A stretch of DNA of 33,956 bases, taken from NCBI GenBank assembly GCA_903847405.1, contig CAINDP010000210.1, positions 1 through 33,956 of the forward strand. Reading direction: 5' to 3'. The DNA is from an uncultured Myxococcales bacterium (GTDB lineage: Bacteria > Myxococcota_A > UBA9042 > DTJE01). The number at the start of each line of letters is the position of its first letter. Positions within the stretch are counted from its first letter, which is position 1. Under the pieces are notes generated by a model. That model was not told the origin of the DNA, did not search any database, and saw only the letters and a list, made by a program, of their open reading frames with translations. Below are positions 3,842 through 19,157 of this stretch, piece by piece. Both the position numbers and the translations under genes were made by a program.

Positions 3842-5386
3842 CTACTCGATGTTGATGAAGAACTCGCCACTACGCGCCACGCAGACCGCGTCCTTGACCA
3901 CGAAGCACTCGATCCAGTGCTTGCCTCGATACAAGGTCGATTCTCGCTGAACCGATTCTCCCTTGAAAATCGTCCCCCTCAACCCGCGACCAACTTCCGC
4001 CTCCTTGCCCGTGTTCACCACCTGCCAATACACGTCAAACGGTGGCACTACGTTCGCCTGGGCTTCGAATAGCAGGTTGAAACCCTTGTGCAACCGACGC
4101 CCGTTGCTGTTCAATCCAAGGGTTCGGAAACCCTTATGAGCGGCCTGGGCCGTCACCCGGACACGGCCCCGAAGATCCATCGGCCATGGTGGCCGGTCGC
4201 CATGACCAACCTCGGGGCGGACGGTCTTCGATGCTAGGGGCGCCAGCGAACCAAGGGACACACCGCGTTGCTCCAGCACCTCCCGTGCCACACGAGCCCC
4301 AAACGGATTGGTGAGCGATTCCTCCAGGTCGATCGATTCCAGAGACTCACCAATCACGCGCAGATCGTTCGTCAGCCACTCAAGCCACGTGAAGAACGCT
4401 TCAGCCTTCGCACTGTCCGGATCGTTCCACCGATCCGCCAGATTCTCCCCGGGATCAACCGGGTTCTTGAGTAGCCACTTGCCGTCCTGCCTCAAGATGA
4501 TCCCAGTTGTCGCGTACCTGCGGATGCGATCCACCACCCCTATCAAAGCGCTGTGGACATCAGGCTCCTGTCTGTAGGACAAGCCGGCCAGGGCTGTGAT
4601 GAGAATGGACGCCGGCTTCTCGCTGTCGTTCTGGAGCCCGCAGAACCGACTGTCCCGGTGTCTCTTCAGGAGTTGCACGGTTCGTTGCAGCGGCGTACGG
4701 ACAAGTGCATCGGGAACCGCCTCAATATTGGCGAACACCTGTCGATGCTGCTCAAAGAGCCGCTGCTTCTGAATCCCTGAATGCTCAAGAAGCATCGGCC
4801 GGTTGATCGCGTTGAACCAGGTGGCGAATCCCTCCGGGTTGGAGTGGTGCCAACGGTAGCCGTTGTCCATCTTCTCCGTTATGGAGATCGCGCGGTCGGA
4901 AAGATCAGGGCCAAGGCCTGCCTCCACCAGAACCCGGCGACGTTCGTCGTCCTCGGGAATTGAGGCCAAAACGTCCATATGGAACCCGATTCCATCCTGT
5001 TCAGCGTACTCCAGCGTCCAGCAACGCCGACCTTCGGCATCCAGCATCTTCGCGTACGTCGCGTGTTCTTTGAGACGATCTCCAACGAGGTTCTTGATGT
5101 TCTGCGGTGTGGTGCGCGATTTCGCAATCTGCAACCTGCAAACGACGTCAATGTCGTACTCGCCTTCGGAGTCCCCAACCACCGGACGAATCACGGTGCC
5201 CATCCTGAACGAACCCTGGGTATGAACCGCCGGATTCAGCCTACCTGTCGAGGATCCTGGAGCACAGAGCCACTGTCCGACCGCTGTGTAGCGCTCAACT
5301 GCCTGCTGGTACTTGCTGGGCGGGATGTCGAGGCTCGCAGCCAGATCGTCGAGCAGTCCAGACAAGGGATCAAGAGCATTTGCCAT
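3842..5386 (-). CDS. CBASS CD-NTase (cyclic oligonucleotide synthase)
   Basis: This 514-residue nucleotidyltransferase is the sensor and signal-making enzyme of a CBASS anti-phage system. On infection such enzymes make a cyclic di- or trinucleotide that activates the effector. The signature is complete: GSFRMGT near residues 58-64, EYDIDVV with Asp78 and Asp80, and a third acidic residue, Asp138, in FHMDVL. The C-terminal ~130 residues (VYWQVVNTGKEA, LRGTI, HWIECFVV) resemble the AGS-C sensor domain attached to many of these enzymes. The ATG at 5386 is preferred over an upstream ATG inside the cap5 end because GGAGAG lies six bases before it. It starts 13 bp after the cap5 stop, so the two are one operon. 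The product nucleotide and the clade (perhaps D or G) cannot be read from sequence alone. Confidence 0.9.
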   Translation of the reverse strand: MANALDPLSGLLDDLAASLDIPPSKYQQAVERYTAVGQWLCAPGSSTGRLNPAVHTQGSFRMGTVIRPVVGDSEGEYDIDVVCRLQIAKSRTTPQNIKNLVGDRLKEHATYAKMLDAEGRRCWTLEYAEQDGIGFHMDVLASIPEDDERRRVLVEAGLGPDLSDRAISITEKMDNGYRWHHSNPEGFATWFNAINRPMLLEHSGIQKQRLFEQHRQVFANIEAVPDALVRTPLQRTVQLLKRHRDSRFCGLQNDSEKPASILITALAGLSYRQEPDVHSALIGVVDRIRRYATTGIILRQDGKWLLKNPVDPGENLADRWNDPDSAKAEAFFTWLEWLTNDLRVIGESLESIDLEESLTNPFGARVAREVLEQRGVSLGSLAPLASKTVRPEVGHGDRPPWPMDLRGRVRVTAQAAHKGFRTLGLNSNGRRLHKGFNLLFEAQANVVPPFDVYWQVVNTGKEAEVGRGLRGTIFKGESVQRESTLYRGKHWIECFVVKDAVCVARSGEFFINIE

Positions 5387-5399
5387 CGAAGTCTCTCCG

Positions 5400-6575
5400 C
5401 TACGATAGAACAAGGGCCTCTGCGAATCCGCCGTTCTTCCAGTTCTGGTCGTACACCTTCAATGGCAGGTCGGCCTTCGGCATTCGAACCCGCCCGATTT
5501 CAACAGCCGCGGCAACGGGAAGCGCCGGGAAGACGTGAAGCACCGACTCTTGTCCATGTGTAGCCTTCACCTGGTCCAGGAGATGCCGGAATACTCCCCT
5601 GAACTCTGCCAGATGGGCCTTGTTTCGCAAGAAGTCGTTGCTGGGCTGGTCGATTGACAAGGTCCAGATCGAGCACTCCGGCCCAAGAACAGCTTCGATT
5701 CGATCGTTGGTGATCGCGGCGCTCAGAGACAGGTTCAACGCAGGGGTGCCGCCGCTCCGCGTTGGACGAGTCATGCGGAACCCCAGTCCTTCCGCGTCCT
5801 CCTGCCATCGCCAGGTGTTCGGTTCGCGATGCCGCTGGTAGACATCGCAGGCATAGACATCGGAAAGCAGGCTCCCGAGAACCATCAACAGTGGCTGCGG
5901 AGCAAAGGCAAACACCGAGAAGTGCTTCACGTCGCCGAGCGTCAACCGGGGACGAACAGCACCTTCAAAATGGGCCTGGAGTTGCTCTCGTTCGGCCGCC
6001 CAATAGGTAGGGTCCCTATCCTCCAGGAACGAGTTCTTCATCCCGAGTTCAATCGGTCTTGCTTCGGCTGGGAATCTTTCAGGCAGAACAGCTTCGACGG
6101 CCTCTCCAAATGAAACACCTGCGTGCTGAGTTCCAATCCTGGCGTCGTAAAGCACGATGTGCGTCCGCTTTCCCGGCGCCAGTGAACCCAGCAGTTCAAC
6201 CCGCTCCTCGTGTCGTTTCTTCATTCCACGAAGGAGGTCCACCGGATGTCCGGCAACATCCTCCTTGTCGATCATGCGATGGTGCGCATCGCACAGCAGC
6301 ATCAGGTTCGAGATGTCGGATTTCAGGGTACCAGAGAGGGTTGGGTGCCCGCGGGGCCCATTGGGCTTGTCGGCGATGATGTGCGCGATATACGCAGTGT
6401 TGAACTCCACCTTCGTCACCGAGTCGAGCCACAAGGGAGAGTTGCAACCCGTGTATTCGCAGCGCCCCGCGGACTTCCCCCATAGCCGTATTTTCACGGT
6501 CTCGGGGATGTACCTCGTGGCAGCAGCACGCTTCTGTTCATCGATGAACTCTTTGATTCGATTAGACACAACCAT
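5400..6575 (-). CDS. cap5: CBASS effector Cap5: HNH endonuclease fused to SAVED domain
   Basis: This 391-residue protein has the Cap5 layout. An N-terminal HNH nuclease occupies about residues 30-105, with Cys39, Cys44, AHIIAD (His65), ISNLMLLCDAHH (Asn90, Cys95, His98, His99). A SAVED nucleotide sensor occupies about residues 140-391, with motifs HFSVFAFAP, TLSIDQPSNDF, VLHVFPALPVAAAVEIGR and LPLKVYDQN. In this family the CD-NTase product binds SAVED, the protein oligomerises, and the nuclease degrades DNA, killing the infected cell. The ATG at 6575 is chosen because the homologous part begins there. The frame is open to 6647, and a GTG two codons further in is better placed relative to GGAG. 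No Cap2 or Cap3 genes are present, so this is a minimal type I CBASS arrangement. Confidence 0.92.
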   Translation of the reverse strand: MVVSNRIKEFIDEQKRAAATRYIPETVKIRLWGKSAGRCEYTGCNSPLWLDSVTKVEFNTAYIAHIIADKPNGPRGHPTLSGTLKSDISNLMLLCDAHHRMIDKEDVAGHPVDLLRGMKKRHEERVELLGSLAPGKRTHIVLYDARIGTQHAGVSFGEAVEAVLPERFPAEARPIELGMKNSFLEDRDPTYWAAEREQLQAHFEGAVRPRLTLGDVKHFSVFAFAPQPLLMVLGSLLSDVYACDVYQRHREPNTWRWQEDAEGLGFRMTRPTRSGGTPALNLSLSAAITNDRIEAVLGPECSIWTLSIDQPSNDFLRNKAHLAEFRGVFRHLLDQVKATHGQESVLHVFPALPVAAAVEIGRVRMPKADLPLKVYDQNWKNGGFAEALVLS

Positions 6576-6650
6576 CGCTCCGTGATCTGCCGCGGGCGGG
6601 AAAGCGATCACCGGGGATTCCTGACGAGCGGACTGACGTCTTCGCACTTT

Positions 6651-6851
6651 CTACCGCCCAAAACGGCGAAACGCGTCCGCAACCCCATCCAAGGCTTTCT
6701 GGATCTTCCTGAGATCGTCCCCAGCCAACGTGATCTCCTGTCCGCACCGGCATCGCACCCTCGTTCCAGGTCCACTGCTGCGAGCCGGAAGTTCGATGCT
6801 CCGCCTGCACGACGGGCACTCGATCGGGATCTTCAGGTCGAATTGTCCCAT
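6651..6851 (-). CDS. Small zinc-ribbon protein in the CBASS transcription unit
   Basis: This is a 66-residue protein with CPSC near residues 12-15 and CRC near residues 34-36. Four cysteines in two pairs, each in a CxxC or CxC knuckle, fit a zinc ribbon. The C-terminal 25 residues are a charged helix. A good AGGA-type ribosome site precedes the ATG at 6851. It lies 9 bp after the YdjM-like gene and 75 bp before cap5 on the same strand, so it is probably co-transcribed with CBASS. The function is unknown. A regulatory or nucleic-acid-binding role is a guess from the fold only. Confidence 0.7.
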   Translation of the reverse strand: MGQFDLKIPIECPSCRRSIELPARSSGPGTRVRCRCGQEITLAGDDLRKIQKALDGVADAFRRFGR

Positions 6852-6860
6852 GTTGTCCTC

Positions 6861-7328
6861 CTAAAACGTGTCAAACCCGATGAGCGGCAATCCCTTGGAA
6901 GTAGTGCAGTCCATCAATAGGTGGGATGCGTATCCGACACCCATCCCGGTAATTGCACCTGCAAGCACGAGGACGAGGAAGGCAGCCAGATCAAGCAGAA
7001 GCGCCCTCATCGGCTCGTCCAGTCGCACCAGGTCAGCCTGCTTCCGCAGAATCTCGGCCCTCGCACGCAGGCGTTGAACCGCAGGCAACGCGTTGGCCGT
7101 GAGGTAGCTCACGCCCGTCAGGCTGACGCAACTATGGCCGACGCCCCGATGGTTCGGATGGTTTGGCGGGTCCAGGGCGTCTGGCAGCCACGCCCCGACG
7201 AGGCCACCTATGGCACCCCCGATCGCTTCGGGCACCACGTTGCCTCTGGAGCCGCGGTGGGCGCGAACCCCTGCTGCTGTGGCACCGGCCAAACCCCCAA
7301 CCGCCAGGTGAATCGCTCTGTTCGGCAT
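6861..7328 (-). CDS. YdjM-like membrane metal-dependent hydrolase family protein
   Basis: This 155-residue protein has hydrophobic segments near residues 8-20, 35-48 and 108-130. It carries the family marks PDALDPPNHPNHRGVGHS and, near the C-terminus, GYASHLLMDCTTSKG, where conserved His and Asp residues are expected to bind metal. YdjM of E. coli is an SOS-regulated inner-membrane member whose substrate is not established. GGAG lies seven bases before the ATG at 7328. It is the first gene of the leftward unit that continues into the zinc-ribbon gene, cap5 and the CD-NTase. Whether it serves CBASS or is only a neighbour cannot be decided from one window. Confidence 0.75.
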   Translation of the reverse strand: MPNRAIHLAVGGLAGATAAGVRAHRGSRGNVVPEAIGGAIGGLVGAWLPDALDPPNHPNHRGVGHSCVSLTGVSYLTANALPAVQRLRARAEILRKQADLVRLDEPMRALLLDLAAFLVLVLAGAITGMGVGYASHLLMDCTTSKGLPLIGFDTF

Positions 7329-7377
7329 CTACGCTCTCCATCTGAACCCGGTGACCTCGGGGAGGCCGATTCCTCCC

Positions 7378-7402
7378 GTACCCCTTGCATGATGGGGGGT
7401 AC
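7378..7402. promoter_or_regulatory. Candidate operator in the CBASS/CapW divergent region
   Basis: GTACCCC (7378-7384) and GGGGTAC (7396-7402) form a perfect 7-bp inverted repeat around 11 bases. A third half-site, GGGGTAC, lies at 7442-7448 just before the regulator's ATG. CapW-type regulators bind such sites in CBASS promoters, so this is the natural candidate operator. GGGGGTAC also occurs at 13272 as part of a likely ribosome site, which weakens the third site. Confidence 0.5.
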
Positions 7403-7451
7403 AGCGGCACGATCCGCGCCGATCCCGATCATTTTTGCACGGGGGTACGAC

Positions 7452-8576
7452 ATGAACCGCGACTGCTGTGACGAGTCCGACAAGACCGACAAGACCAAGG
7501 CGCTGAACCTGGCCCGGATCGTGTTCAAGCTAACCACCGATCCGCGCGGCTGGCGGGTGGATCGGTTGATCGACGAACTGGGTATCGCCGACCGTACCTA
7601 CCGCGACTACCGGCAAACCCTGAAAGAGCAGTTCGAGGAATTGAAGGACAAGCAGAGGAGGACACTGATCGAGGAGGTGAAGGACGGCGAGACCCGGTAT
7701 CTGCGATTGCGGGATTCGGAAGACTCCATCACCGACGAGTCCGTCTTCGTGTCGCGAATGACGGCACTTGAGATGGCCCGCCAGGCATTTGGGTTCCTCC
7801 AGAACACAGACGTCGGACGCGACATCGAGACGTTTCGCCAGGACATCTTCAACCGCGTCGGCGATCGCACGTACGTGTACAGGTCCCTGACGAAGAACCT
7901 GGACCGCAAACTGTACTACCTTCCGCACGCACCAAAGGACTACAGCCGACAGGGCCAGAAGTTGCGTACCGTACTGCGGGGCCTCATCGGCAGCAGGGTC
8001 CTTTCGATCGCCTACGACTCGCCCACCAATCGCCTCCCACGCCTTGTGGAGCCGTTGACGCTGATCCAGTGGAGGAGCGCTCTCTACCTTGTTGTACGGT
8101 CACGCGAAAAGAAGGGCATTTACATCATGGCCGTGGACCGGATGCTGGAGGTCAAGTCGACCGGCCAAGGGTTCCACTATCCGCCCCCGGAGGTATACCA
8201 CCCCGAGCGGTTCACCGAAGGTGGCTTCGGCATCTTCCAGCAGAAGGATGGGGTGCCCACACGGGTGGAACTGGTTTTCGCCAACAAGCGGCCGTTGAAA
8301 CTCGACCTCACCGAACGCCGGTGGCACGATACCCAGCATACCGAGGAACTTCCTGACGGCCGTCTTCGCATGACCTTCACAGTTCGTACTCTGGTCGAGG
8401 TCCGGCCGTGGGTTCGCTCGTATGGAGCCGACGTTGAGGTGATCACTCCGGTTGACCTACTCGCGCAGGACACGAACTCGGACACGACCAGGAAGAGGGC
8501 CGCTGCCCCTCGCACCAGGAAGCAACGAAATGCCGAGACCGTGCCGGCCCCAGGATCGCCGCTGCCAGATGCGTGA
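7452..8576 (+). CDS. capW: CapW-like WYL-domain transcription regulator
   Basis: This 374-residue protein has a winged helix-turn-helix near residues 20-60 (WRVDRLIDELGIADRTYRDY). A WYL-type domain occupies about 175-245, where the name motif is degenerate (ALYLVV) but IYIMAVDRM is kept. A C-terminal WCX domain ends PWVRSYGADVEVITP. CapW/BrxR proteins are repressors next to CBASS, BREX and other defence loci and release DNA when the WYL domain senses a ligand or damaged DNA. The gene faces away from the CBASS operon across a 123-bp gap holding an inverted repeat, which fits autoregulation and control of CBASS. The start is the ATG at 7452, with GGGGG six bases upstream. The last 40 residues are basic and disordered. 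The symbol rests on domain order and position. Confidence 0.8.
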   Translation: MNRDCCDESDKTDKTKALNLARIVFKLTTDPRGWRVDRLIDELGIADRTYRDYRQTLKEQFEELKDKQRRTLIEEVKDGETRYLRLRDSEDSITDESVFVSRMTALEMARQAFGFLQNTDVGRDIETFRQDIFNRVGDRTYVYRSLTKNLDRKLYYLPHAPKDYSRQGQKLRTVLRGLIGSRVLSIAYDSPTNRLPRLVEPLTLIQWRSALYLVVRSREKKGIYIMAVDRMLEVKSTGQGFHYPPPEVYHPERFTEGGFGIFQQKDGVPTRVELVFANKRPLKLDLTERRWHDTQHTEELPDGRLRMTFTVRTLVEVRPWVRSYGADVEVITPVDLLAQDTNSDTTRKRAAAPRTRKQRNAETVPAPGSPLPDA

Positions 8577-8609
8577 TACGATTGGTTCTCGGCGTACCGG
8601 AGAATCAGG

Positions 8610-8984
8610 GTGAAGTTGACAACGGATCACATCGAAGCCCTAGTTGCAGCCGTGCTGGCCGTGAACAACTATCGTCTGGAGAAGGTCTGGGCCCAGTTAC
8701 CCGGACTCCAAGCCGCAGGGCTGACGGATCCAGAATGGGTGGCAGCGGCGGACCTGGGCGAAGTCGTAGTCCGGCTGACCGCTTCGGGCCATGACCGCGG
8801 GATGCTGGCTGGACTGATCGCCGACCGGCTGCAGACGATGATGCAGGCCGTGGTTGCCGGTACGCTCGACCCCCTGCCGGACGCCCTCAAGCGCGGGGAC
8901 CGTGACGCTGCCGTGGGAATCCTCTGCACGGCAAAGGGAATCGGCCCCAAGGTCGCTGACAATGCCCTGATGCTGATGAAGTAG
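8610..8984 (+). CDS. Truncated HhH-GPD-like protein (helix-hairpin-helix)
   Basis: This 124-residue protein starts at the GTG at 8610, with GGAG about eight bases before it. The helical order and the end, KGIGPKVADNALML, resemble the first domain of endonuclease III-type DNA glycosylases, whose hairpin reads LPGVGRKTA. The lysine at the catalytic position is kept. The protein stops four residues after the hairpin, so the catalytic Asp and the iron-sulphur part of true glycosylases are missing. It follows the regulator by 33 bp and is probably on the same message, ahead of the restriction enzyme. It could be a DNA-binding accessory or an eroded enzyme. Confidence 0.6.
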   Translation: MKLTTDHIEALVAAVLAVNNYRLEKVWAQLPGLQAAGLTDPEWVAAADLGEVVVRLTASGHDRGMLAGLIADRLQTMMQAVVAGTLDPLPDALKRGDRDAAVGILCTAKGIGPKVADNALMLMK

Positions 8985-9036
8985 CGCAACGAACCTAAGT
9001 CACCGACATTGGCCTTCCGCCGGGCTCATCGCGAAC

Positions 9037-9065
9037 TTGTCGTTCCGGACCCGCCGGCCTATTCT
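9037..9065 (+). promoter_or_regulatory. Candidate promoter of the type IIG enzyme
   Basis: TTGTCG (9037-9042) and TATTCT (9060-9065) are separated by 17 bp and lie 30 bp before the ATG at 9095. Each element matches the sigma-70 consensus at four of six positions. Found by eye. Confidence 0.45.
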
Positions 9066-9094
9066 CGCCAGACTGATCCTCTGGCAGGGTGTTC

Positions 9095-12000
9095 ATGGCC
9101 GAAAACTTCGAGATGTTCTCCATCCGGTACGTGAATCGCGAACTGTTCTCGGAGCGGTTCCTTCGGGACCTCCTGCCGCAGAGGCCCGAATGGAAGCAAT
9201 GCGAGGCCAGCGCTCGGACCGCGATGAACGCCTTGAAGGAACTGTACGCGAAGGAAAGGTCTGCACTCCCGGGCCTCCGCGAAGAACAACTTGAGGTGAC
9301 CTGGATCCAGAAGGTCCTGGACATTCTGGGCCACTCCTTCGAAATCCGTTTTCGCCTGCCCACGGACACGTCTGGCGTCGACATCGTCCCCGACTACGCG
9401 TTGTTCCCGACTCCTGATGACAAAGTAATCGCACGCGGACTCGTCGAAGCAGGCAAGCCTTTCGATGCCGCTCGACACGTCGGAATGCTCTGCGAGGCGA
9501 AGCGCTGGGCTCGGGATTTCGGCCGAGCCGCAAAGGGCCAGAAAACGCCCAGGCAACAACTCGCTGACTACCTGATGCGTTCCGGCGTGGAGTGGGGCTT
9601 CCTGACGGACGGCAGGTACTTCCGGCTGGTGCACCGCTCCGTGGCCGGCCGCCTGGATCACTACTATCACGTCGATCTGGTCTCGGCCCTGGATGCCGAC
9701 GACCTCGATGCCTTCATGTACTTCTACCTGTTCTTCCGTGGCGAGGCGCTGCGACCGGCCCCCGGCACCGGCCGCACGTTCCTGGACGAGGCCCGGACCG
9801 AGTCACAGAGTTACGCCACGAACGTCGGCGAGGGTCTGAAGGATTCCGTATACGATGCACTGACGCACCTGGCGCAGGGTTTCGTCACGCGCGCCGAAGA
9901 CTTGACGCAGCCGACCGAGGACGAACTGGGGCACGAGTGCCTGGTCCTCCTGTACCGCCTGCTCTTCCTGTTGTATGCCGAGCATCGACGCCTGCTGCCG
10001 CTGGGCGATCCCGGCTATGCCGAATTCAGTTTCACGAAACTTACCCACGATGTTGCCGGGCACCAGGACAGCGGGGCGCCCTACCTGCCAAGGGGGACGT
10101 CCCTGTGGGGCAGACTGAAGGGCCTGTTCGACCTGGTGGATCGCGGCGACGAGGCCCTGAAGGTGCCCGCGTATAACGGTGGCCTGTTCAACCCGCTGAA
10201 GCATCCGTTCCTGGCCAATCAGGAACCGGGCGATCGGGACCTGGCCGCGGCCATCGATCTGCTGGCCCGCACGCAGGTCGGCAAGACCGGCGCCCGACAC
10301 TTCATCGACTACCGCGATCTCGACATCCGGCACATCGGAACGATCTACGAAGGCCTGCTGGAGTACCGGGTTCGGGTGGCGGCCACCGATCTGGCCGTCG
10401 TCGATGACCCGAAGGCCAGGACGCAGCGGTACGAACCCTTCGTGGCTGGCGAACATGTGAAGGCCGCGGTGGCGAAGGGCCGGGCCTACCTCGTCACCGA
10501 CCGCGGCGAACGCCAGACCAGCGGGTCCTTCTACACTCCCGACTTCATCGTGGAACACATCGTCGCCGAAACGCTGGGCCCCCTGGTGGCAGGAAAGACG
10601 CCGGAGGCGGTCCTTGCGCTGCGCGTCGTTGATCCGGCGATGGGGTCCGGACACTTCCTGTTGGCCGCCGTGGATTTCCTTGCGCGGGCGTATGGACAGG
10701 CGTTGATTGACGCCGGCCGGGACGACGACGGCATTCTGTCGGACGCGGAATTGGCTGCTTATCGCCGCCTGGTTGTCGAGCACTGCATCTACGGCGTGGA
10801 CCTGAACGCGATGGCTGTCGAACTGGCCAAGGTCGGCCTGTGGCTCAAGACCATGGCGACAGACCGGCCGCTGACCTTCCTGGACCACCATCTGAAGCAC
10901 GGGAATTCGCTGCTGTCTGCGCGCATCGAACAGGTGGGGCGGCCTCTCGCCGTCCGCGACACCCGCAAGAAACGGTACGACGCTGCGACAGACGAAGCAC
11001 AGATCGGACTGTTCGAGCAGTACTTCCGGGCGACGCTGCCCTCGATGCAGCACCTCATCGCGGAAATCCTTGGGCGGGAGACCCACACCCGGGAAGACGT
11101 CAAACTGAAGGAAATCTGTGACGCGCAGGTGGATGCCGCCAGAGCACCCCTCGCCGCGGTCGCGGATGTGTACCTTGCTCAGGCCTTTGGGGTGCAGCCC
11201 AAGCAGTTCGACGCCACCGTGAGTTGGCTCCATCAGACAGCGAAACTGCTCGGGTCGGCCGACGTGACGAATGCCCGTCCGACGGCCGTCCGGAAACACT
11301 TCTTCCACTGGCAACTGGTCTTCCCCGAAGCGTTCTTCGACAAGAACGGCAACCCCCTTCCTGACGCGGGTTTTCATGCGGTGGTCGGCAATCCGCCCTG
11401 GATCCGCCAGGAAACGTTGTCCGAGGACAAGGAGGCCCTCCAGGCTCTGTACCCGGACGTCTTTCACGCGGCTGCGGACATCTACGTGTTCTTCGTGGCG
11501 GCCAGTCTGTCGCTGCTTGCGCCGGCCGGGCGGCTCGGCATGATCCTGCCCAACAAGTGGCTGCGCACCGACTACGGCAAGGCGCTGCGGCAGACCCTGG
11601 TTTCAAAATTCCGTCCTGTCGGACTCGTGGATTTCGGTCATGCCCCGATCTTCCCAGACGCGGACACGTTCCCATGCATCCTCGTCGTAGAGAGAAATTC
11701 CCCGAGTGCGACGGCTGAAGATGACGACGGCTTGCAGTTCTGCCAGGTGCCGCGGGAGTCCCTCGACGGCATCATGCTGACGACATTCGTGCGGAAGCAT
11801 GAATTTGCGGTGACGTCCGACCAACTTCGCGCGGAAGGCTGGACGACACAGCCGCCGGAGGTGGCACGGCTGCTGGCGAAGGTGCGAGCGACGGGCCAGA
11901 CGTTGAAGAAGTACCTGGGGGCGTGCCCCATGTACGGGTTGAAGACCGGCTTCAACGAGGCGTTCCTTGTCGACCAGACTACGAGAGATGCGCTGGTTGC

Positions 12001-12919
12001 CGCCGATCCCAAGTGCATCACGATCCTGAAGAAGCATCTGCGCGGCCGAGACGTCGAGCGGTGGCACGCTCGATGGGACGGAGAATGGTTCATCGCGTTG
12101 AGAAGCAGCGAGAACCATGCATGGCCGTGGGCTGAGCGAGGCAAGGCTGCCGAGGGCGTATTCCAGCATTCCTTCCCGTCGCTCCACGCCCACATGAAGC
12201 TCCATGAGGCAGCGCTGAGAAAGCGACAGGACCACGGCCGATACTGGTGGGAGTTGCGTTCCTGCGACTACTACGACAGCCTGGAGCGACCGAAACTCCT
12301 GTATCAGGAAATCCAGTTCCACAGTTGGTTCGCGTTTGATGACGTCGGGTACTTCGTCAACAACAAGGTGTTCCTGCTGCCCACCGACGACCTCGGCCTG
12401 CTGACCGTGCTCAACTCGTCTCTGATGTGGTGGTTCCTCTGGTTCACCATGCCGCACATGAAGGACGAAGCCTTCGCGATGCAGGGCACATACGTTGAGA
12501 ACCTTCCGATCCTGAAGGCGCCAGCAAAGCCTGCCAAGAACCTGGTACGCCTGGCTGCGGAGCGCCAGCAGGCCGAGTGCGAGTTCCTGGGCTGGATGCG
12601 CGGCCAGCACGGGTTGGTCCAGACATCGCAGAAACTGGAATCGTTCTGGACCCTCGACGAGACCGCCTTCGTGGCGGAACTGAAGAAGGCCAAGGTGCGG
12701 CCGAAGCCCGCGGCGCTCACCGAAATCAAGGCGCAGTTCGAAATCTACCGCACACGCATCCAGGCCATGGTCACGGAGGCACGCGGCTGGGAACACCAGG
12801 TCCACGACACGGTGTTCAAGTTGTATGGTCTGACCGAGGACGAGGTGGCCCTGGTCCGCCGAACGACCCCGTCGCGAGACCCGCTCACCTTGCTGGAAGG
12901 TTCTGGCCAGGTCGAGTGA
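9095..12919 (+). CDS. Type IIG restriction-modification enzyme (Eco57I-like)
   Basis: This 1274-residue protein combines cutting, methylation and DNA recognition. The N-terminus has a PD-(D/E)XK-like pattern: VDIVPDYALF near residue 93 and MLCEAKRW near 131. The adenine methyltransferase core has motif I, DPAMGSGHFLL, near residue 513 and motif IV, NPPW, at 766-769. The last ~400 residues (GLKTGFNEAF, FVNNKVFLL, YVENLPI) match the TaqI-like target recognition region and should set the site. Such enzymes methylate N6 of adenine in one strand of an asymmetric site and cut nearby. The ATG at 9095 follows AGGG by five bases; a GTG at 9089 is in frame. No separate specificity gene is nearby, consistent with a stand-alone enzyme. 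Confidence 0.92.
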   Translation: MAENFEMFSIRYVNRELFSERFLRDLLPQRPEWKQCEASARTAMNALKELYAKERSALPGLREEQLEVTWIQKVLDILGHSFEIRFRLPTDTSGVDIVPDYALFPTPDDKVIARGLVEAGKPFDAARHVGMLCEAKRWARDFGRAAKGQKTPRQQLADYLMRSGVEWGFLTDGRYFRLVHRSVAGRLDHYYHVDLVSALDADDLDAFMYFYLFFRGEALRPAPGTGRTFLDEARTESQSYATNVGEGLKDSVYDALTHLAQGFVTRAEDLTQPTEDELGHECLVLLYRLLFLLYAEHRRLLPLGDPGYAEFSFTKLTHDVAGHQDSGAPYLPRGTSLWGRLKGLFDLVDRGDEALKVPAYNGGLFNPLKHPFLANQEPGDRDLAAAIDLLARTQVGKTGARHFIDYRDLDIRHIGTIYEGLLEYRVRVAATDLAVVDDPKARTQRYEPFVAGEHVKAAVAKGRAYLVTDRGERQTSGSFYTPDFIVEHIVAETLGPLVAGKTPEAVLALRVVDPAMGSGHFLLAAVDFLARAYGQALIDAGRDDDGILSDAELAAYRRLVVEHCIYGVDLNAMAVELAKVGLWLKTMATDRPLTFLDHHLKHGNSLLSARIEQVGRPLAVRDTRKKRYDAATDEAQIGLFEQYFRATLPSMQHLIAEILGRETHTREDVKLKEICDAQVDAARAPLAAVADVYLAQAFGVQPKQFDATVSWLHQTAKLLGSADVTNARPTAVRKHFFHWQLVFPEAFFDKNGNPLPDAGFHAVVGNPPWIRQETLSEDKEALQALYPDVFHAAADIYVFFVAASLSLLAPAGRLGMILPNKWLRTDYGKALRQTLVSKFRPVGLVDFGHAPIFPDADTFPCILVVERNSPSATAEDDDGLQFCQVPRESLDGIMLTTFVRKHEFAVTSDQLRAEGWTTQPPEVARLLAKVRATGQTLKKYLGACPMYGLKTGFNEAFLVDQTTRDALVAADPKCITILKKHLRGRDVERWHARWDGEWFIALRSSENHAWPWAERGKAAEGVFQHSFPSLHAHMKLHEAALRKRQDHGRYWWELRSCDYYDSLERPKLLYQEIQFHSWFAFDDVGYFVNNKVFLLPTDDLGLLTVLNSSLMWWFLWFTMPHMKDEAFAMQGTYVENLPILKAPAKPAKNLVRLAAERQQAECEFLGWMRGQHGLVQTSQKLESFWTLDETAFVAELKKAKVRPKPAALTEIKAQFEIYRTRIQAMVTEARGWEHQVHDTVFKLYGLTEDEVALVRRTTPSRDPLTLLEGSGQVE

Positions 12920-13210
12920 TTGCGTTGCTTGGCGCGGAAGACCCCAGCCCCGCCGAGGATGCGCCAAACGCGCAGGACAACCGCGCAGGCCGACTGCCTC
13001 GCGCGCGATTGCGCCGATCATTCGCAGGTGACTGTGGCGGGGCGCCCGAGCGCCACCCTTCCCAGCCAGCCACTGCCGCCAGCAACATCTTCGCCTCGGC
13101 TTCGAGCCCTAATGGGCGCGTTCATCGCGTTCATCGCCCAGTGCCATACCCGGTATCATGACCTTCCTCGGCGAGCCTGATTTCATCAACATGCCCTGCC
13201 TCAAATCCTA
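12920..13210. other. Non-coding gap after the type IIG gene
   Basis: I see no supported gene between 12920 and 13280. A hairpin with 6-bp arms, GTGGCG (13034-13039) and CGCCAC (13051-13056), could end the upstream message but has no T-run. The direct repeat GCGTTCATC occurs twice at about 13119-13136. The downstream promoter begins at 13211. Confidence 0.4.
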
Positions 13211-13239
13211 TTGACGCAGTTCGCTCGCCTGGATAGCAT
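13211..13239 (+). promoter_or_regulatory. Candidate sigma-70-type promoter for the 13281 gene
   Basis: TTGACG (13211-13216) and TAGCAT (13234-13239) are separated by exactly 17 bp, 42 bp before the ATG. They match consensus at five and four positions of six. This is one of the best promoter candidates in the window. Confidence 0.6.
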
Positions 13240-13280
13240 CCTTCAACTGGTTCACAAATCTCTTTATCCGGGGGGTACAG

Positions 13281-14276
13281 ATGCAGCGTTTCTGCACGCT
13301 CGTTCTTTTCCTATCCGCATTCTGCTTGGCGAGCAACGCCACGCACGCACAGGGCGTGCCGACGCCACAGCAGACGGTACGGATGGCCGTCGCGCCGGCC
13401 CACAAGGGACCGCGGGTCAACGAGTTCACCGTTGAGGAACAGGTCGGCGGTGTCACGACGACGCACAACTATCGGCTCTATGTACTCCTGATCTACAATG
13501 ATCAAGAATCGTTGGAACTGGCCCAAGACTGCGACCCGACCTGGATTGAGAACAACACCGCGAGTTCCGTGGAAGGAGCATGGGCCTCTCAGGCGCCCGT
13601 CCCCTTGCTTCGGACCAAGAGTTATCTCGTCGTCTGTGCCTTCGAGAAGAACGGCACGGGGAATTGGGTCAAGAAGTCACTCAAGCAGATTGGGGTCACG
13701 TCAATACGAATGGTCACCAAGAACTCCGAGGTAGTGAACAACACCTCGGTCGATGCGAGTTTCGCCAAGTGGGTTGCCGCGGCCTCCGTATTGCCGATGA
13801 GCCTCCCAGCCCGGGACCTGCTGGAAAGGGACGAGGGGCGCTGGGCTCGCAACGCTCGCATGGCCATCGAGTTCCAGATCGAGAAAAGCACGCCTATCCC
13901 GGCCTGGATGGAGTTGCGGAAGATCGGCTACTTCCACGGAAGCCTGGAACTCGCGAACACCTACGGTTTCGCTTTCGGGGACAAGGGGAACGCCATCGCG
14001 ATGCCCCTGGTCGTGGCCCTCGGCGGCGACTGGCCGGTCATCCGTAATTCGGATTTCTACCTGGGTGTCCACGCCCTTCTCTCGCCGACGTTCAAGTTCG
14101 CTGAAGGAAAAATCTCGCAGGTCATCTCCGCAGCGGTTGGTGCGCGCTTCGACATCGGGGGATACGCCGGTATCGGCGCCGGCTATCTGATCGATTTCAC
14201 CGGCGACACGAAAGGCAACGCCCTGATCTTCCTTTCGATCGGTAGCGAAATCATGAAGGTTCTGGCGACGCAGTAG
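13281..14276 (+). CDS. Exported protein of unknown function
   Basis: This 331-residue protein has a signal peptide: a hydrophobic core in residues 4-18 and a likely cut after THA near residue 23. The ATG at 13281 is preceded by GGGGGT five to ten bases upstream. Residues 60-160 look mixed alpha/beta and contain three scattered cysteines. The C-terminal ~130 residues alternate Gly and hydrophobic residues (FHGSLELANTYGFAFG, GARFDIGGYAGIGAGYL), as in outer-membrane beta-barrel strands. I do not recognise the family. It sits inside the defence island but has no feature that links it to defence. Confidence 0.75.
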   Translation: MQRFCTLVLFLSAFCLASNATHAQGVPTPQQTVRMAVAPAHKGPRVNEFTVEEQVGGVTTTHNYRLYVLLIYNDQESLELAQDCDPTWIENNTASSVEGAWASQAPVPLLRTKSYLVVCAFEKNGTGNWVKKSLKQIGVTSIRMVTKNSEVVNNTSVDASFAKWVAAASVLPMSLPARDLLERDEGRWARNARMAIEFQIEKSTPIPAWMELRKIGYFHGSLELANTYGFAFGDKGNAIAMPLVVALGGDWPVIRNSDFYLGVHALLSPTFKFAEGKISQVISAAVGARFDIGGYAGIGAGYLIDFTGDTKGNALIFLSIGSEIMKVLATQ

Positions 14277-14387
14277 CAGGCCCTCCACTCTCGGACACGC
14301 CCGCCAATTCGGGAGCCTGCCCCTGGATTCACCATGTCGCAACCATCTGCGACTATCGCCAGCACCTGCCGAACCGGAGGCCCGCCG

Positions 14388-15272
14388 ATGTCCACCCCCG
14401 CGGATCCCATCCCGAGCGAAGTTCTCCCCGGGTTCCGTCAACTGGGCGACGATTGCCCCGTCAGCAATGCCTTCGAAATCTTCCAGGCCATCGGGACGGA
14501 ACCCCGCACCCTTGAGAGCGCCGTGTTGGCCGCGGTGGAGACTGGTGTCCCACGGTACCCGGTCACCGGGGTCACGGCGGCCTGTCAGGACAGGACGGGC
14601 CTGCCCGGCGGGCGGTACATCGTGGGCCCGGACCACGCGGCCCCCTGGATCCTGGACGTGATCGCCATCGGGGACCCCAGCCGGCTGGTGGCATTCATGC
14701 CGCTCCGCGAGCCCGGCCTTGGGGTGCAGGCGAAGTTCGTGGAGGCATCCGTCCTCCCGGAAGGCGTCGAGGCGTGGACGACGATCGAAGTCAACGACGT
14801 CGAATGGACCTTCTACGACACGCGGTTCTGCCTGTGCCGTGCGACGTACCAGCCCGGCGTGACCGCCCCGTGGCGACTTTCCGCGATCGCCGTACGGGTC
14901 GGCCCGGGCGGGGCCGACGACACCCGCGAGGAGGTCCTCCCCGCCAGTCGCGTCGATCCACTGGGCGACACCGTCGACATGACCGAGCTGTCCTACTTCT
15001 TCCCGTCCATGAATGGCCCGGGGGACGAGGCCCAGATCCGCGGCCGGATCCGTGCCGTGCGCAACGTGCGGTTCGGGGACGTGGACGCCTGGGAGATCGA
15101 TGTCGTCGTCCCCGCGGACACGAATGCCACCGAGTGGCCTGTCCTGCCGGTGCTGGTCGGTCGACCGGCATGGGCTGGCCTTCATGCGCCGATTGTCGGG
15201 GGCTTCCTGGAAGGCTTCGCCTGGGTGCAAGGCTACCGGGACGACGTTCCGTTCGCGACCGCGGTGGGGTGA
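14388..15272 (+). CDS. Hypothetical protein, probably cytoplasmic
   Basis: The ATG at 14388 follows GGAGG by seven bases and gives 294 residues. An in-frame ATG at 14334 lacks a ribosome site. No signal peptide or membrane span is visible. The middle contains many short beta-strand-like stretches (WTTIEVNDVEWTFYDTRF, RLSAIAVRVG), and residues 180-290 include MTELSYFFP and AWEIDVVVP. I cannot assign a family or function. It converges on the ATPase/TOPRIM pair with a 61-bp gap. Confidence 0.65.
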   Translation: MSTPADPIPSEVLPGFRQLGDDCPVSNAFEIFQAIGTEPRTLESAVLAAVETGVPRYPVTGVTAACQDRTGLPGGRYIVGPDHAAPWILDVIAIGDPSRLVAFMPLREPGLGVQAKFVEASVLPEGVEAWTTIEVNDVEWTFYDTRFCLCRATYQPGVTAPWRLSAIAVRVGPGGADDTREEVLPASRVDPLGDTVDMTELSYFFPSMNGPGDEAQIRGRIRAVRNVRFGDVDAWEIDVVVPADTNATEWPVLPVLVGRPAWAGLHAPIVGGFLEGFAWVQGYRDDVPFATAVG

Positions 15273-15333
15273 AACGCTCGCGGATGCGGGGCGACCCTGG
15301 GTCAACCCCAGTGCAGGCGGGACGCAAACGCGC

Positions 15334-15918
15334 TCATGGCAGCATGTGCGGACCAGCGGGAACTGCCCCAAGGGCTCGGGCGACGATCCGCACCAACCGG
15401 TCGAAGGACGGCAGTGCAGCCCGGACCAGGTCACGACGTTCTCGCGGCCCCCTTGCGGCGCGATTCAACGCAATGTCGCGTACGTTCAGGCCGGGCTTTT
15501 CGGCCAAGGGCTGCAGGCCCTCCACCCAGCGAATCGCGTCGATCAGGCTTTCCAGGTTCGATTCCAGGAGCACCAACCGGTCGGCCAGGATGACCCCGGC
15601 GGGCGCCACTTTCGCGTCGAAGGCAGTGCGGATCGCACTCTTGCATGAGTTGCCGGGCAGGTTGAAAAGGCCTCGTACTTTGTCCTCGTCCAACACGGCG
15701 ACCAGCCGAAACGCCGTGGCGGAATAGCCGGCATTTTCGCATTCCTTCACGACGTTCCCATTCCCCTTGCAGGGCTTCGAGTCAATCGACTCCCGGACCA
15801 AACGCAGGTCCGTCGCGGCCTCGTCGGCGACGCAGGCGCACAGGAAGGCGTGGGGGCCGTATCCCCTTGGCGGCTGGCCTTGTGCAAGACGATCCTCGAA
15901 CAGAACCCGAATCTTCAT
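15334..15918 (-). CDS. Possible TOPRIM-like partner of the OLD-type ATPase
   Basis: This 194-residue protein begins with a beta strand ending in an acid (IRVLFEDR, Glu8) and later has AVLDEDK with Asp77 and Asp79. An early Glu and a later DxD are the metal-binding marks of the TOPRIM fold, which supplies the nuclease in OLD, GajA and AriB-type defence proteins. The Gly that normally follows the Glu is missing, so this is tentative. Its ATG overlaps the end of the ATPase gene by 4 bp, so the two are translationally coupled, and the ATPase has no TOPRIM domain of its own. Together they could be a split OLD-like system. The partner does not look like the HNH protein of Septu. Confidence 0.65.
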   Translation of the reverse strand: MKIRVLFEDRLAQGQPPRGYGPHAFLCACVADEAATDLRLVRESIDSKPCKGNGNVVKECENAGYSATAFRLVAVLDEDKVRGLFNLPGNSCKSAIRTAFDAKVAPAGVILADRLVLLESNLESLIDAIRWVEGLQPLAEKPGLNVRDIALNRAARGPRERRDLVRAALPSFDRLVRIVARALGAVPAGPHMLP

Positions 15919-17108
15919 CGCTCGTCCTCCGCCGGGGTCTCGGGACGAATCACCAGCGCCTCCTGACCGGCGCTGCGCAGATCACCGTACCCCCTGTACC
16001 CGTCCAGCCAACGTGCCAGAGCGTCAGGGTCTGGTCGGGCAAGACGCGTGTGGCGGCCCTTGGCCAGTTCGCAGACGACGACCGAACTGGCTGGCTGGGT
16101 CAGGTAGTCCAGGAATCGATCCGAATGTGTCGCCACCAGCACCGGTCGGGTCGTCGCGATGGATTCAAACAGTCCGACGGCCCTGGCCAGGAGAGCCGGG
16201 TGCAGATGAAGGTCCGGCTCATCGAATGCCAGCAACGAACCCGTGCCGGGCAGCCGAAGAAGGACCACCAATCCCAGCCACACGACCATGCCGTCCGAAA
16301 GTTCGCTGCCCTGGATGAGGCGATCCATTCCCCGGTACTTGATCGCGATCGACACGTACCCGCCGTTCGGCGCCACCGGCGTGGTCACCGTCTCCAGGTC
16401 CTCCCCGAGTCCCAGGCGGATGTACTCCAGCGTTTCCTGCCAATGCGTCTCGCCGAAGTTGCTCCGCAAGGCGAACAGGGTGCTGGCCAGGTTTGCGGCG
16501 CGCCTTTCCAGAACGGTGGTAGGCATCAGCATCGACGCTTCACGCACTGGCGAGCGAGTTTGCGAACCCTGGGCGATCCAGGAAGGCGTGACGTCAAAAG
16601 GCACGTGGACTTCGATGGCCCGGAGTGCCTCCCGAACGATGGACACCCGTTCCGGCGCCGCGCCTCCCAGAAAGGAGATCGCCGGCCGGTCCGGGCTCGG
16701 GGCATTGTGTGGCCCCCCACCAGCAACGTCCAGCCTGGTTCCGACCCGCACGAACACGGGATCGGGGCCGCCGCCGCCCGAATAGGCAATCAGTCGCTCC
16801 TGGCCCACTCCGCCGGGGGTCAGCACGATGGAGTAGTTCAGCGAGTCCGCCCCGTTCCTCAACGTCACTGCCAGGTCCAGCGACTTGGGGCCCGGTTGAA
16901 TCAGGGACGTGCCCGAGTGGATCGCGTTGAAGTCGTACCAGAAATTCTCCCCGGAAAGGCGCCGCAGGATCTCCAGCGCTTCGATGATCGAACTCTTCCC
17001 GACTCCGTTCTCGCCGATGAGGACCGTCAGCGGGCCGAGTTTCAGCCTGACGTCGGCCAGGCAACGCAGGCCCTTGATTCGAACCTCGGCGAGTCGGAAT
17101 CCTTCCAT
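15915..17108 (-). CDS. OLD/AAA15-21-type ATPase
   Basis: This 397-residue ATPase has the order of OLD-like and RecF-like proteins. Walker A is LIGENGVGKSS near residues 30-40, an ABC-like signature region is GSELSDGMVV, and Walker B is LLAFDEPDLHLHP. A downstream ATHSDRFL histidine motif follows. A C-terminal nuclease domain is absent, so the gene ends about where OLD proteins would continue into TOPRIM. Related ATPases are sensors in defence pairs such as PARIS (AriA) and Septu (PtuA). The ATG at 17108 has GGAGG six bases upstream. The stop overlaps the next gene's start by 4 bp. A possible -10 element TAAGAT lies about 45 bp upstream on the reverse strand. Confidence 0.85.
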   Translation of the reverse strand: MEGFRLAEVRIKGLRCLADVRLKLGPLTVLIGENGVGKSSIIEALEILRRLSGENFWYDFNAIHSGTSLIQPGPKSLDLAVTLRNGADSLNYSIVLTPGGVGQERLIAYSGGGGPDPVFVRVGTRLDVAGGGPHNAPSPDRPAISFLGGAAPERVSIVREALRAIEVHVPFDVTPSWIAQGSQTRSPVREASMLMPTTVLERRAANLASTLFALRSNFGETHWQETLEYIRLGLGEDLETVTTPVAPNGGYVSIAIKYRGMDRLIQGSELSDGMVVWLGLVVLLRLPGTGSLLAFDEPDLHLHPALLARAVGLFESIATTRPVLVATHSDRFLDYLTQPASSVVVCELAKGRHTRLARPDPDALARWLDGYRGYGDLRSAGQEALVIRPETPAEDER

Positions 17109-17169
17109 CGGGCACCTCCGAGCCAGCGAACCGGTCGCGGGGCGTATCTTACCTTGTTATCGGGATGAG

Positions 17170-17198
17170 TTGACACCGTGGACCATCGGCGCGATGAA
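17170..17198 (+). promoter_or_regulatory. Candidate promoter of the DUF262/HNH gene
   Basis: TTGACA (17170-17175) is a perfect -35 element. At 17 bp comes GATGAA (17193-17198), a poor -10 element. It lies in the 141-bp gap between the two divergent defence genes. Confidence 0.4.
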
Positions 17199-17249
17199 TG
17201 CCCGCGTTCGGTAAACCGCCGAAGAGGACCCACGGGAGGCCGTTGAATC

Positions 17250-19157
17250 ATGGCAGGATCCGCGTTCCAGACGAATCCCATCGACCTCGATGCACTGCTG
17301 GACGATTGCGAAAGCGGCGTTCTGCAACTGCCGGATTTCCAGCGCAGTTGGGTCTGGGACGAAGACCGCATCAAGAGCCTGCTGGCCTCGATTTCCAGGG
17401 CCTTTCCCATCGGGGCGTTGATGTCGCTCAGCACGGGTGGTCCCGTGGATTTCAAGCCTCGCCCGGTTGAAGGCTCACCGAGTCGTGCAAAGGAAGCCAC
17501 GCCTCAATCCCTGCTGCTGGACGGCCAGCAACGCATGACTTCGCTGTACCAGGCCACCATTCGAGGCAAGGTCGTCGAGACGGTCACCCCGAAGAAGAAG
17601 AAGGTGAAGCGCTGGTTCTACATCGACATCCGCAAGACGCTCGACCCTTCGGTAGACCGTGAAGAGGCGATCGTCGGCGTCCCCGAGGACCGGGTCATTC
17701 GAACCGATTTCGGCCGTGAGACTCACCTGGACCTTTCGTCACCTGAACTGGAGTACGCGGCCCTGATGTACCCGGTGTCCCAGGTCTTTGACTGGGACAA
17801 GTGGCAGGACGGCTTCGACCAGCACTGGCGCGGTGACCAGAACGAAAAGGTCCGCGACGAATTCCGGGCCTTCAAGCGCCAGGTTCTGGAAAACTTCAAG
17901 TACTACCGCGTACCGGTCATCACGCTGGACCGATCGACCTCCAAGGAGGCGGTGTGCGTCGTTTTCGAAAAGGTGAACACCGGAGGCAAGGCGCTGGACG
18001 CCTTTGAACTGGTGACCGCGATGTACGCTGCCTCGGGGCACGAATTGCGGAAGGACTGGTACGGGGACGACGGGACGAAGGGACGGCATCGGCGGTTCAA
18101 GGAAACCCTTCGGCCGGCCGATTCCGACGCCGGCATCATCGCGGCAGTTTCGAATACGGATTTCCTGCAGGCGATTTCCCTGTTCCATACGCGAGATCGC
18201 AGGCGGGCGGCGGAAGCCGCAGGAAAGCAGGGCAAGGAACTGCCCGCTGTTTCAGGGAATCGGCAAGCCCTGTTGAACCTGCCCCTCGATGCGTACAAGC
18301 GGTACGAAGCCCAGGTGGAAAACGGCTTCGTGCGCGCGGCCAAGTTCCTGCACATGCTGCACATCTACCGGATATTCGATCTGCCGTACCAGTCACAGAT
18401 CGTTCCGCTGGCGGCCATTCTTTCCGAGATCGGCGACGCGTGGGAGCACGAAGCGAACCGCGCCAAACTGGTGAGTTGGTACTGGAATGGAGTCTTCGGC
18501 GAACTCTATGGTTCCGCCGTGGAAACGCGCATCGCGCGCGATTTCATGGAGGTGCCGGTCTGGCTGGCGGGCGGTCCCGAACCATCCACGGTTCGCGAAA
18601 CCATCTTCCGCGCCGACCGGTTGAAGACCATGAGGATGCGCCTGTCCGCAGCCTACAAGGGGATCAATGCGCTCCTGATGAAGGAAGGCGCCAAGGACTT
18701 CCGTTCAGGGCAGCGGTTCGACCACACCGTGTTCTTCGGCGAGAACGTGGACATCCACCACATCTTCCCCCAGGACTGGTGCAAAAAGCACGGCATCAAG
18801 CCAGGCGTCTACGATTCCATCATCAACAAGACGCCGTTGTCGTACAGGACGAACCGGATCATCGGAGGTGTTGCGCCGTCCGAGTACCTGGCGAAACTTG
18901 AACGAGGCGATGGTGCCACGCCCCCGATCGACGCAGCAAGACTCGATATCTACCTCACGTCCCACCTGACGGATTCGTTGCTGGTGCGTGCCGACAACTT
19001 CGGCGCCTTCATGGAGGACCGACAGAATCGGTTGTTGGCCCTGATCGAGCAGGCAACCGGCAAGCCCATCTACCGGGGCGACGCCAAGGAGGAAGGCGAG
19101 GATGTCGATGGCGACGAGGATACGGTCGAGGCCGAACTGACGATTGCATCGACGTGA
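17250..19157 (+). CDS. DUF262/HNH protein, GmrSD-like type IV restriction candidate
   Basis: This 635-residue protein starts with a DUF262 (ParB/Srx-like) domain. It has LQLPDFQRSWVWDEDRI near residues 25-41, LLLDGQQRMTSL near 88-99 (Asp91) and VFEKVNTGGKALDAFEL near 240. The C-terminal half has an HNH-type motif, VDIHHIFPQDW, near residue 500, followed by LSYRTNRIIGG and APSEYL. In GmrSD and related enzymes DUF262 binds and hydrolyses nucleotides and the HNH part cuts DNA with modified bases. GGGAGG lies 11 bases before the ATG at 17250. The acidic tail (residues 610-630) is probably disordered. It diverges from the ATPase pair, so the three may or may not act together. Confidence 0.88.
   Translation: MAGSAFQTNPIDLDALLDDCESGVLQLPDFQRSWVWDEDRIKSLLASISRAFPIGALMSLSTGGPVDFKPRPVEGSPSRAKEATPQSLLLDGQQRMTSLYQATIRGKVVETVTPKKKKVKRWFYIDIRKTLDPSVDREEAIVGVPEDRVIRTDFGRETHLDLSSPELEYAALMYPVSQVFDWDKWQDGFDQHWRGDQNEKVRDEFRAFKRQVLENFKYYRVPVITLDRSTSKEAVCVVFEKVNTGGKALDAFELVTAMYAASGHELRKDWYGDDGTKGRHRRFKETLRPADSDAGIIAAVSNTDFLQAISLFHTRDRRRAAEAAGKQGKELPAVSGNRQALLNLPLDAYKRYEAQVENGFVRAAKFLHMLHIYRIFDLPYQSQIVPLAAILSEIGDAWEHEANRAKLVSWYWNGVFGELYGSAVETRIARDFMEVPVWLAGGPEPSTVRETIFRADRLKTMRMRLSAAYKGINALLMKEGAKDFRSGQRFDHTVFFGENVDIHHIFPQDWCKKHGIKPGVYDSIINKTPLSYRTNRIIGGVAPSEYLAKLERGDGATPPIDAARLDIYLTSHLTDSLLVRADNFGAFMEDRQNRLLALIEQATGKPIYRGDAKEEGEDVDGDEDTVEAELTIAST

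Follow-up and report, generated by a model that had tools for sequence, protein, structure and literature searches.

OLD-type ATPases are reported with TOPRIM or other nucleases (parts of PMC12839542, citing Krishnan et al. 2020), and the number of classes into which OLD-type ATPase/TOPRIM systems fall is a question raised in a review (excerpts of PMC10568477). PARIS is named as the class with split domains in the available text of PMC12796447 and PMC10568477. In PARIS, AriB is a two-metal tRNase that becomes active through AriA (PMC12839542 and PMC12409363, in part), and the TOPRIM domain of GajA is regulated by the protein's own ATPase domain (PMC12796447, in part). The term DUF4435 is present in passages of PMC9122126, and Hma-embedded candidates are named as a class in passages of PMC10855318 and PMC12988326.

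The window analyzed here, a stretch of DNA of 33,956 nucleotides taken at its full length, contains two adjoining genes, A and B, the features of which are collected in Table 1. We read them as a predicted immune cassette of two genes, complete in itself, that makes the halves of an OLD-like enzyme as separate proteins, and place the probability of this reading at roughly 0.7. The earlier note had described an ATPase that stops short of the TOPRIM domain carried by OLD proteins, coupled by a 4-bp overlap to a 194-residue protein with an early Glu and a later DxD. This description was found to be accurate: the product of gene A has Walker A, Walker B and H-loop motifs and ends before any TOPRIM domain, and Glu8 and Asp77-Glu78-Asp79 are present in B. 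The ORFs are not chance ones, as seen from their coding GC pattern (0.69/0.47/0.76 and 0.68/0.49/0.78 by codon position for the two genes), from relatives of B that carry E8, D77 and D79, and from the recurrence of the overlap. A scan for promoters and terminators returned 0 sites of each.

Table 1. Positions in the window of the two genes, their overlap and the predicted metal-binding codons of B.
Feature	Position	Strand	Basis
Gene A, ABC-type ATPase, 397 aa, without TOPRIM domain	15915..17108	-	Pfam, PADLOC, model
Gene B, predicted TOPRIM-fold nuclease, unnamed family, 194 aa	15334..15918	-	Model pLDDT 87.4; VIA Z 9.8; conserved residues
ATGA overlap of A stop and B start, 4 bp, translational coupling	15915..15918	-	4 bp in 11/14 pairs, 1 bp in 3/14
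Glu8 codon in B (residue predicted to bind metal A)	15895..15897	-	Conservation
Asp77-Glu78-Asp79 codons in B (DxD, predicted to bind metal A)	15682..15690	-	Conservation
Asn121-x-Glu123 codons in B, located where OLD has its S/T-x-E motif for metal B	15550..15558	-	Conservation and residues in PMC7049728 (in part)

The protein encoded by gene A, an ABC ATPase like those of OLD, Rad50 and PtuA, matched AAA_21 (9.7e-24) and AAA_15 (3.2e-16) in Pfam, and its best PADLOC model was HEC-01A (PDLC04175, 2.2e-39), with weaker matches to AriA models (2.2e-24 and weaker) and to AbiLi (7.6e-18). Its Walker A motif is GENGVGKSS, its Walker B motif is LLAFDEPDLHLHP and its H-loop is ATHSD. Residues G32, K38, S39, G273, E297, H301 and H303 are shared by all 14 rows of the A alignment, and Gln replaces the H-loop His in 2 of 14 A proteins. 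Toward its C-terminal end, A has a further conserved stretch that includes W367, G375, R378 and G381. The structural model of A (pLDDT 82.6) scored Z values of about 20 against Rad50, PtuA and SMC heads. OLD chains were absent from its best 50 structure matches (VIA), an absence that excludes nothing. The label "OLD-like" used in the earlier note suits the predicted fold of B; the A model is equally like the heads of Rad50, SMC and PtuA, though the best PDB sequence match of A was the OLD protein Ts OLD.

By sequence, B matches no family in Pfam, PADLOC, NCBIfam or PHROGs, and its best match among PDB sequences had an E value of 0.3. Lone matches to unrelated families, none better than E 0.0088, were attributed to chance. 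A tblastn search of B against plasmids and phages returned nothing, and none of the viral structures in BFVD resembled the B model at E under 0.001. An AlphaFold2 model of B, built on an alignment of 13 members, had a pLDDT of 87.4 and a pTM of 0.85. Its elements follow the order β 2-7, α 21-33, β 45-49, α 53-62, β 70-77, α, β 115-118 and α 122-132, a TOPRIM domain that is followed by three helices. When the model was compared with the PDB using Foldseek, the top match was Ts OLD (E 1.0e-3, probability 1.00); next came the C-terminal region of Burkholderia OLD (E 5.6e-3, probability 0.99) and then DMC1 (E 4.1e-2). VIA-align likewise placed the C-terminal region of Bp OLD at the top (6nk8; Z 9.8, rmsd 4.1, 157 residues aligned), followed by Xanthomonas OLD (Z 9.1-9.0), Ts OLD (6p74; 8.8) and GajA (8.1-7.4); the first unrelated chain, lumazine synthase, scored 5.5. 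A VIA Z below 8 can reflect nothing more than a common arrangement, and the OLD rows exceed all others. Residues 1-184 of the model align onto OLD 393-594, and the OLD rows cover residues 1-186. The fold match to OLD is modest (rmsd about 4, best Foldseek E 1e-3). On the basis of the model, B is predicted to have a TOPRIM fold of the OLD C-terminal type, in agreement with the TOPRIM likeness that the earlier note had suggested. We also considered whether B is an OLD C-terminal domain that was split off by gene fission. This idea gained no backing from sequence: the profile score of B against OLD was 12.9, at the level of shuffles (up to 18.6), and such an origin is backed by the fold only.

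Conservation among relatives of B points to a metal-binding site. In OLD proteins, as given in the available part of PMC7049728, metal A is bound by E377/D431/D433 (Ts) or E400/D455/D457 (Bp), and metal B by D381/S478/E480 (Ts) or E404/T506/E508 (Bp), plus R487 or K562. Residues E8, D9, D77, D79, E123, R147 and R162 of B were invariant in the 15 intact pairs, at identities to the window's B of 23-34% among the 13 relatives aligned; the B alignments exclude two broken copies (L045 and L047), and alignment A3 also excludes L047. When an outlier described below (L177) was included, E8, D9, D77, D79 and E123 were kept in all 16 B sequences (14, L175 and the outlier). The conservation of Glu8, Asp77 and Asp79, which the earlier note had made a test of its proposal, is thus complete in these 16 sequences. 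R147 is kept in 15 of the 16, the outlier lacking both R147 and R162. Position 121 is Asn except in L098 and in the outlier, where it is Ser, so that N/S121-x-E123 occurs in 16/16. The spacing of N121-x-E123 is that of Ts S478-x-E480 and Bp T506-x-E508 (PMC7049728, in part). By order and spacing, rather than by superposition, E8, D77 and D79 would fit metal A and N121-x-E123 would fit the S/T-x-E of metal B. R147 is a candidate counterpart of OLD R487/K562. The acidic residue that OLD proteins carry four positions after the first Glu (D381/E404) has no counterpart in B, and D9 may substitute for it. B looks as though it carries a complete two-metal site.

The distribution of B was determined within the window's phylum and in other sequence sets. 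A protein search found B in 13 of 282 genomes (E up to 0.01), and an alignment search found it in 14 of 377 (E up to 0.001). One of the latter, G089 (E 6e-5, one stop), was rejected as a carrier: its locus gave only a 12.6-bit match and had no A-type ATPase. Its removal left 13 genomes and 15 B loci, the window included. Six weak matches (E 8e-4 to 8e-3; G106, G066, G146, G180, G254 and G032) were at first set aside, and one of them, G032, proved to be a true B when it was recovered through a profile search with A. Altogether, these searches detected B in 14 genomes of the phylum to which the window belongs and in one genome of a second phylum. The latter, G687, was the single positive among 149 genomes of the phylum set of a Brocadiaceae bacterium. 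B was found in 0 of 249 and 0 of 149 genomes in the phylum sets of a Thiobacillus and of Terrabacter, respectively, and in 0 of 19 further sequence sets at E 0.001; an empty result carries no weight in a set without a known positive. In rpoB, the window genome and a phylum mate share 62% identity, and G687 shares 51% with the same query, within the 49-52% of four other genomes of the Brocadiaceae set. Because of these identities, we place the A-B pair in at least two phyla. Judging by its rpoB and the appearance of the neighboring genes, the window might come from Myxococcota.

An A-type ATPase lies directly upstream of B at all 17 loci, two of which are broken: the B frame is split in L045, and both genes are truncated in L047. 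The order of the genes is the same in the second phylum (L098; 8335-9615 and 9612-10247) and in G032 (L175; 1477-2745 and 2747-3307). Among 14 intact pairs tabulated, A and B share 4 bp in 11 and a single bp in three; L175, in which the genes are separated by a gap, is not among them. A profile search of 311 genomes with A returned 13 A genes at 233 bits or more, the next scoring 193, and B adjoins 12 of the 13, including a truncated copy in G221. The distance matrices of A and B at 13 loci were correlated (r 0.71), a value that was not reached in any of 5000 permutations. Two genomes, G204 and G038, each have two distant copies of the pair, and the pair was absent from both of the other genomes of the window's genus that were searched. 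A search of contigs with the ATPase alignment listed at least 40 loci of more distant ATPases, none of those listed having a meaningful B score; they supplied HEC-01-like and OLD-like comparators. A viral scan with the ATPase alignment found four loci, none with B. Taken together, these data show that A and B are inherited jointly, side by side, and that the pair moves from genome to genome.

Two loci stand apart. In G282 an ATPase of the A clade without B (L174, 1453-2709) was the only orphan seen, and by eye the gene downstream of it is of the HAD type. In G084 an outlier pair (L177, 856-3566) combines an ATPase at about 193 bits with a B-like partner at E 0.0014, in which the motifs WED, KGNGN, DGD and SRES are present and both Arg residues are missing. 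It is possible that this partner is a bridge to other TOPRIM partners.

The strongest rival explanation is that the pair is merely a divergent HEC-01, a further member of the candidate listed in PADLOC as an ATPase with a DUF4276 partner; we consider the chance of this to be somewhat below even. HEC-01A is the best PADLOC model of A, as noted above. Seven proteins downstream of similar ATPases in other genomes were examined: DUF4276 was matched by three with E values no higher than 1.6e-5 and by one more at 4e-4. PADLOC names several such proteins HEC-01B, from which we infer that HEC-01B is DUF4276. In the window's phylum, 39 of 140 genomes carry DUF4276, and an ATPase match accompanies it at each of the 24 loci examined. 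Sixteen of these loci and five partners of more distant ATPases supplied a 21-sequence profile. Compared over its full length with this profile using hhalign, B reached a probability of 64, or 81 with the roles swapped, at a score of 36.8; controls scored at most 18.3 in 60 column shuffles and 16.8 with a reversed profile. With 14 B rows, the probability was 82 and the score 41.9, against at most 16.5 in 100 shuffles of B. By subset, the probability was 0.2 for subset a, 43 for subset b and 0.8 for the five HEC-01B-like proteins alone, and subsets a and b themselves reached only 56 against each other. Profiles of other families gave low values: RloB (9 sequences) 0.3, DUF4435 (5 sequences) 3.0, OLD C-terminal regions 0.1 and the halves of A 0.1-0.3. 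Among the families that the earlier note had named for comparison, DUF4276 thus gave a remote match and DUF4435 did not.

Against a mere divergent HEC-01 stand the model searches and the ATPase tree. None of 9 B proteins matched any PADLOC, DUF4276, DUF4435 or RloB model at E up to 10. In a tree of 46 ATPases, the 15 A proteins formed one clade (support 100/99) apart from all 26 ATPases paired with DUF4276 or HEC-01; long branches were flagged among the comparators in this tree, which excludes L103, L055 and L089 (P-loop pattern unmatched) and L114 (a short ATPase piece). We conclude that B is remotely DUF4276-like in its sequence profile. Because of this profile match and the separate ATPase clade, the pair can be regarded as a sister type or deep branch of HEC-01; the likeliest ancestry is that of a distinct branch within the ATPase + DUF4276 (HEC-01) type. 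The suggestion in the earlier note that the pair may be an undescribed variant is supported. The literature searched, which is not exhaustive, contained no mention of DUF4276, nor of HEC-01 together with PADLOC.

The surroundings of the pair bear on a second rival, namely that it serves housekeeping or stress-related DNA or RNA processing, A being a RecF/Rad50-like ATPase and B a TOPRIM nuclease similar to M5 or OLD. The window's copy sits in a low-GC defence island with CBASS. The pair lies within 3842-19157, where GC is 59-65%, with flanks at 70-72% and 66% in the 2 kb to the right, and its GC3 is lower than that of its surroundings. Positions 3842-6647 (-) of this low-GC stretch encode a CD-NTase (523 aa; AGS_C 1.5e-27, DncV-like 3.2e-10) and a SAVED protein (415 aa, 1e-49), the ORFs of which overlap by 14 bp and which we take to be CBASS. 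At 6921-12919 (+), a WYL protein (551 aa), an unmatched 124-aa protein and an Eco57I-type methylase (1276 aa; best matches DrmMI and type IIG models) probably make up a single-chain restriction system. A GmrSD_N (DUF262) protein of 635 aa at 17250-19157 (+), divergent from A and 141 bp away, had PDC-M55C as its best PADLOC match (1.1e-24). No GajB helicase gene was recognized next to the pair in the window.

At other loci the neighbors are mostly ordinary, with RNA polymerase, ribosomal S7 and EF-Tu domains (Pfam, 92 proteins, 15 loci), and 13 other ORFs of the window had no relatives at the 16 other loci (phmmer, E up to 1e-4). Among the matches listed, which are the best 25 of 182 and 25 of 140 families, given without the names of their members and so no guide to which loci are defence islands, defence-like neighbors were seen in the window and probably at L037 only; from gene sizes and the Pfam list, the L037 pair probably adjoins a type I restriction system. 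The pairing proposed in the earlier note recurs at every B locus. At L043, an A-B pair (7550-9540) lies on the opposite strand between rpoC- and rpsL-like genes; gene sizes and the Pfam list indicate that these are probably rpoC and rpsL, which would put the two-gene cassette within a core operon region, and the rpoB of this locus is backed by its matches in 13 of 15 genomes. Near the pair at L034, a tyrosine-integrase-like protein and a small helix-turn-helix protein were noted by eye at 9692-11188 (-).

We regard the housekeeping role as unlikely. Several copies do lie among ordinary genes, A does resemble Rad50/SMC heads, and the archaeal OLD protein Cran1 has a role in the cell cycle (PMC12796447, in part). 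Against this, the pair is very patchily distributed (found in 13 of 377 phylum genomes, and in neither of the two same-genus genomes searched), one genome can hold duplicates of distant lineages, copies are broken at L045 and L047, and the window's copy lies in a defence island. It is highly improbable that the window holds only the decayed or inactive remains of such a system, since both ORFs run their full length and keep every motif residue, even though relatives are broken in two genomes (L045 and L047).

Returning to the immune cassette, analogy with PARIS and GajA suggests A as sensor and lock and B as effector, and B is probably related to known systems that defend against viruses with two genes. 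By this analogy, the pair is probably an ATPase-gated suicidal nuclease. A dimer of A, or a larger assembly, would bind B and keep the nuclease idle until an infection cue, such as a phage protein or an aberrant DNA end, as for AriA or GajA, alters the nucleotide state of A. B would then be freed or opened and would cut nucleic acid with two Mg ions, metal A being held by E8, D77 and D79 and metal B by E123 and N121, possibly with D9, and with R147 as the putative counterpart of Bp OLD K562. The infected cell would halt its growth or die. Because B is structurally nearest to OLD and GajA, DNA is slightly favored as the substrate over tRNA, which would be AriB-like. There is about an even chance that the pair is an undescribed split ABC-ATPase/TOPRIM immune system that forms a lineage distinct from those of PARIS, HEC-01, AbiL and Gabija and has a nuclease family, trigger and target of its own, moving as a bare cassette that lands in housekeeping loci and defence islands alike.

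The pair adds a nuclease family that was missed by the libraries searched, with 15 intact pairs to choose from, and the residue pattern of B yields a prediction that is testable with single mutants. Should HEC-01 and the A-B pair share descent, this would suggest that DUF4276 is a TOPRIM-type nuclease.

Compared with known systems, the pair shares an ATPase, a predicted TOPRIM fold and what may be a two-metal site with OLD (class 1; Ts OLD, 6p74) and with GajA of Gabija (class 2), the C-terminal half of which is covered by the B model. Those enzymes, like OLD classes 1-3 as a whole, are one polypeptide, whereas here two ORFs overlap by 4 bp, and B has no sequence-level link to them. AbiL (AbiLi and AbiLii) likewise combines an ATPase with a small TOPRIM-like protein, and A matches the AbiLi model; its AbiLii partner is RloB-like, whereas B has no RloB match (profile probability 0.3). 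The PtuA-PtuB pair of Septu and retrons shares the ABC ATPase fold of A (Z about 20), but PtuB is an HNH nuclease and B is predicted to have a TOPRIM fold. The partner in PARIS belongs to the DUF4435 family, which B does not match (profile probability 3.0). The earlier note was thus right to set the pair apart from PARIS by its partner, but the nearest pair is the PADLOC candidate HEC-01 rather than PARIS. Like the pair described here, PARIS (AriA and AriB; class 4 OLD) has its ATPase and TOPRIM domains on adjacent genes (available text of PMC12796447 and PMC10568477). HEC-01 (Hma-embedded candidate 1, PADLOC) differs in that B is not recognized by HEC-01B or DUF4276 models and the A ATPases form a separate clade, yet it has the same layout of two adjacent genes, the same type of ATPase and a small TOPRIM-like partner of about 200 aa that matches B remotely by profile.
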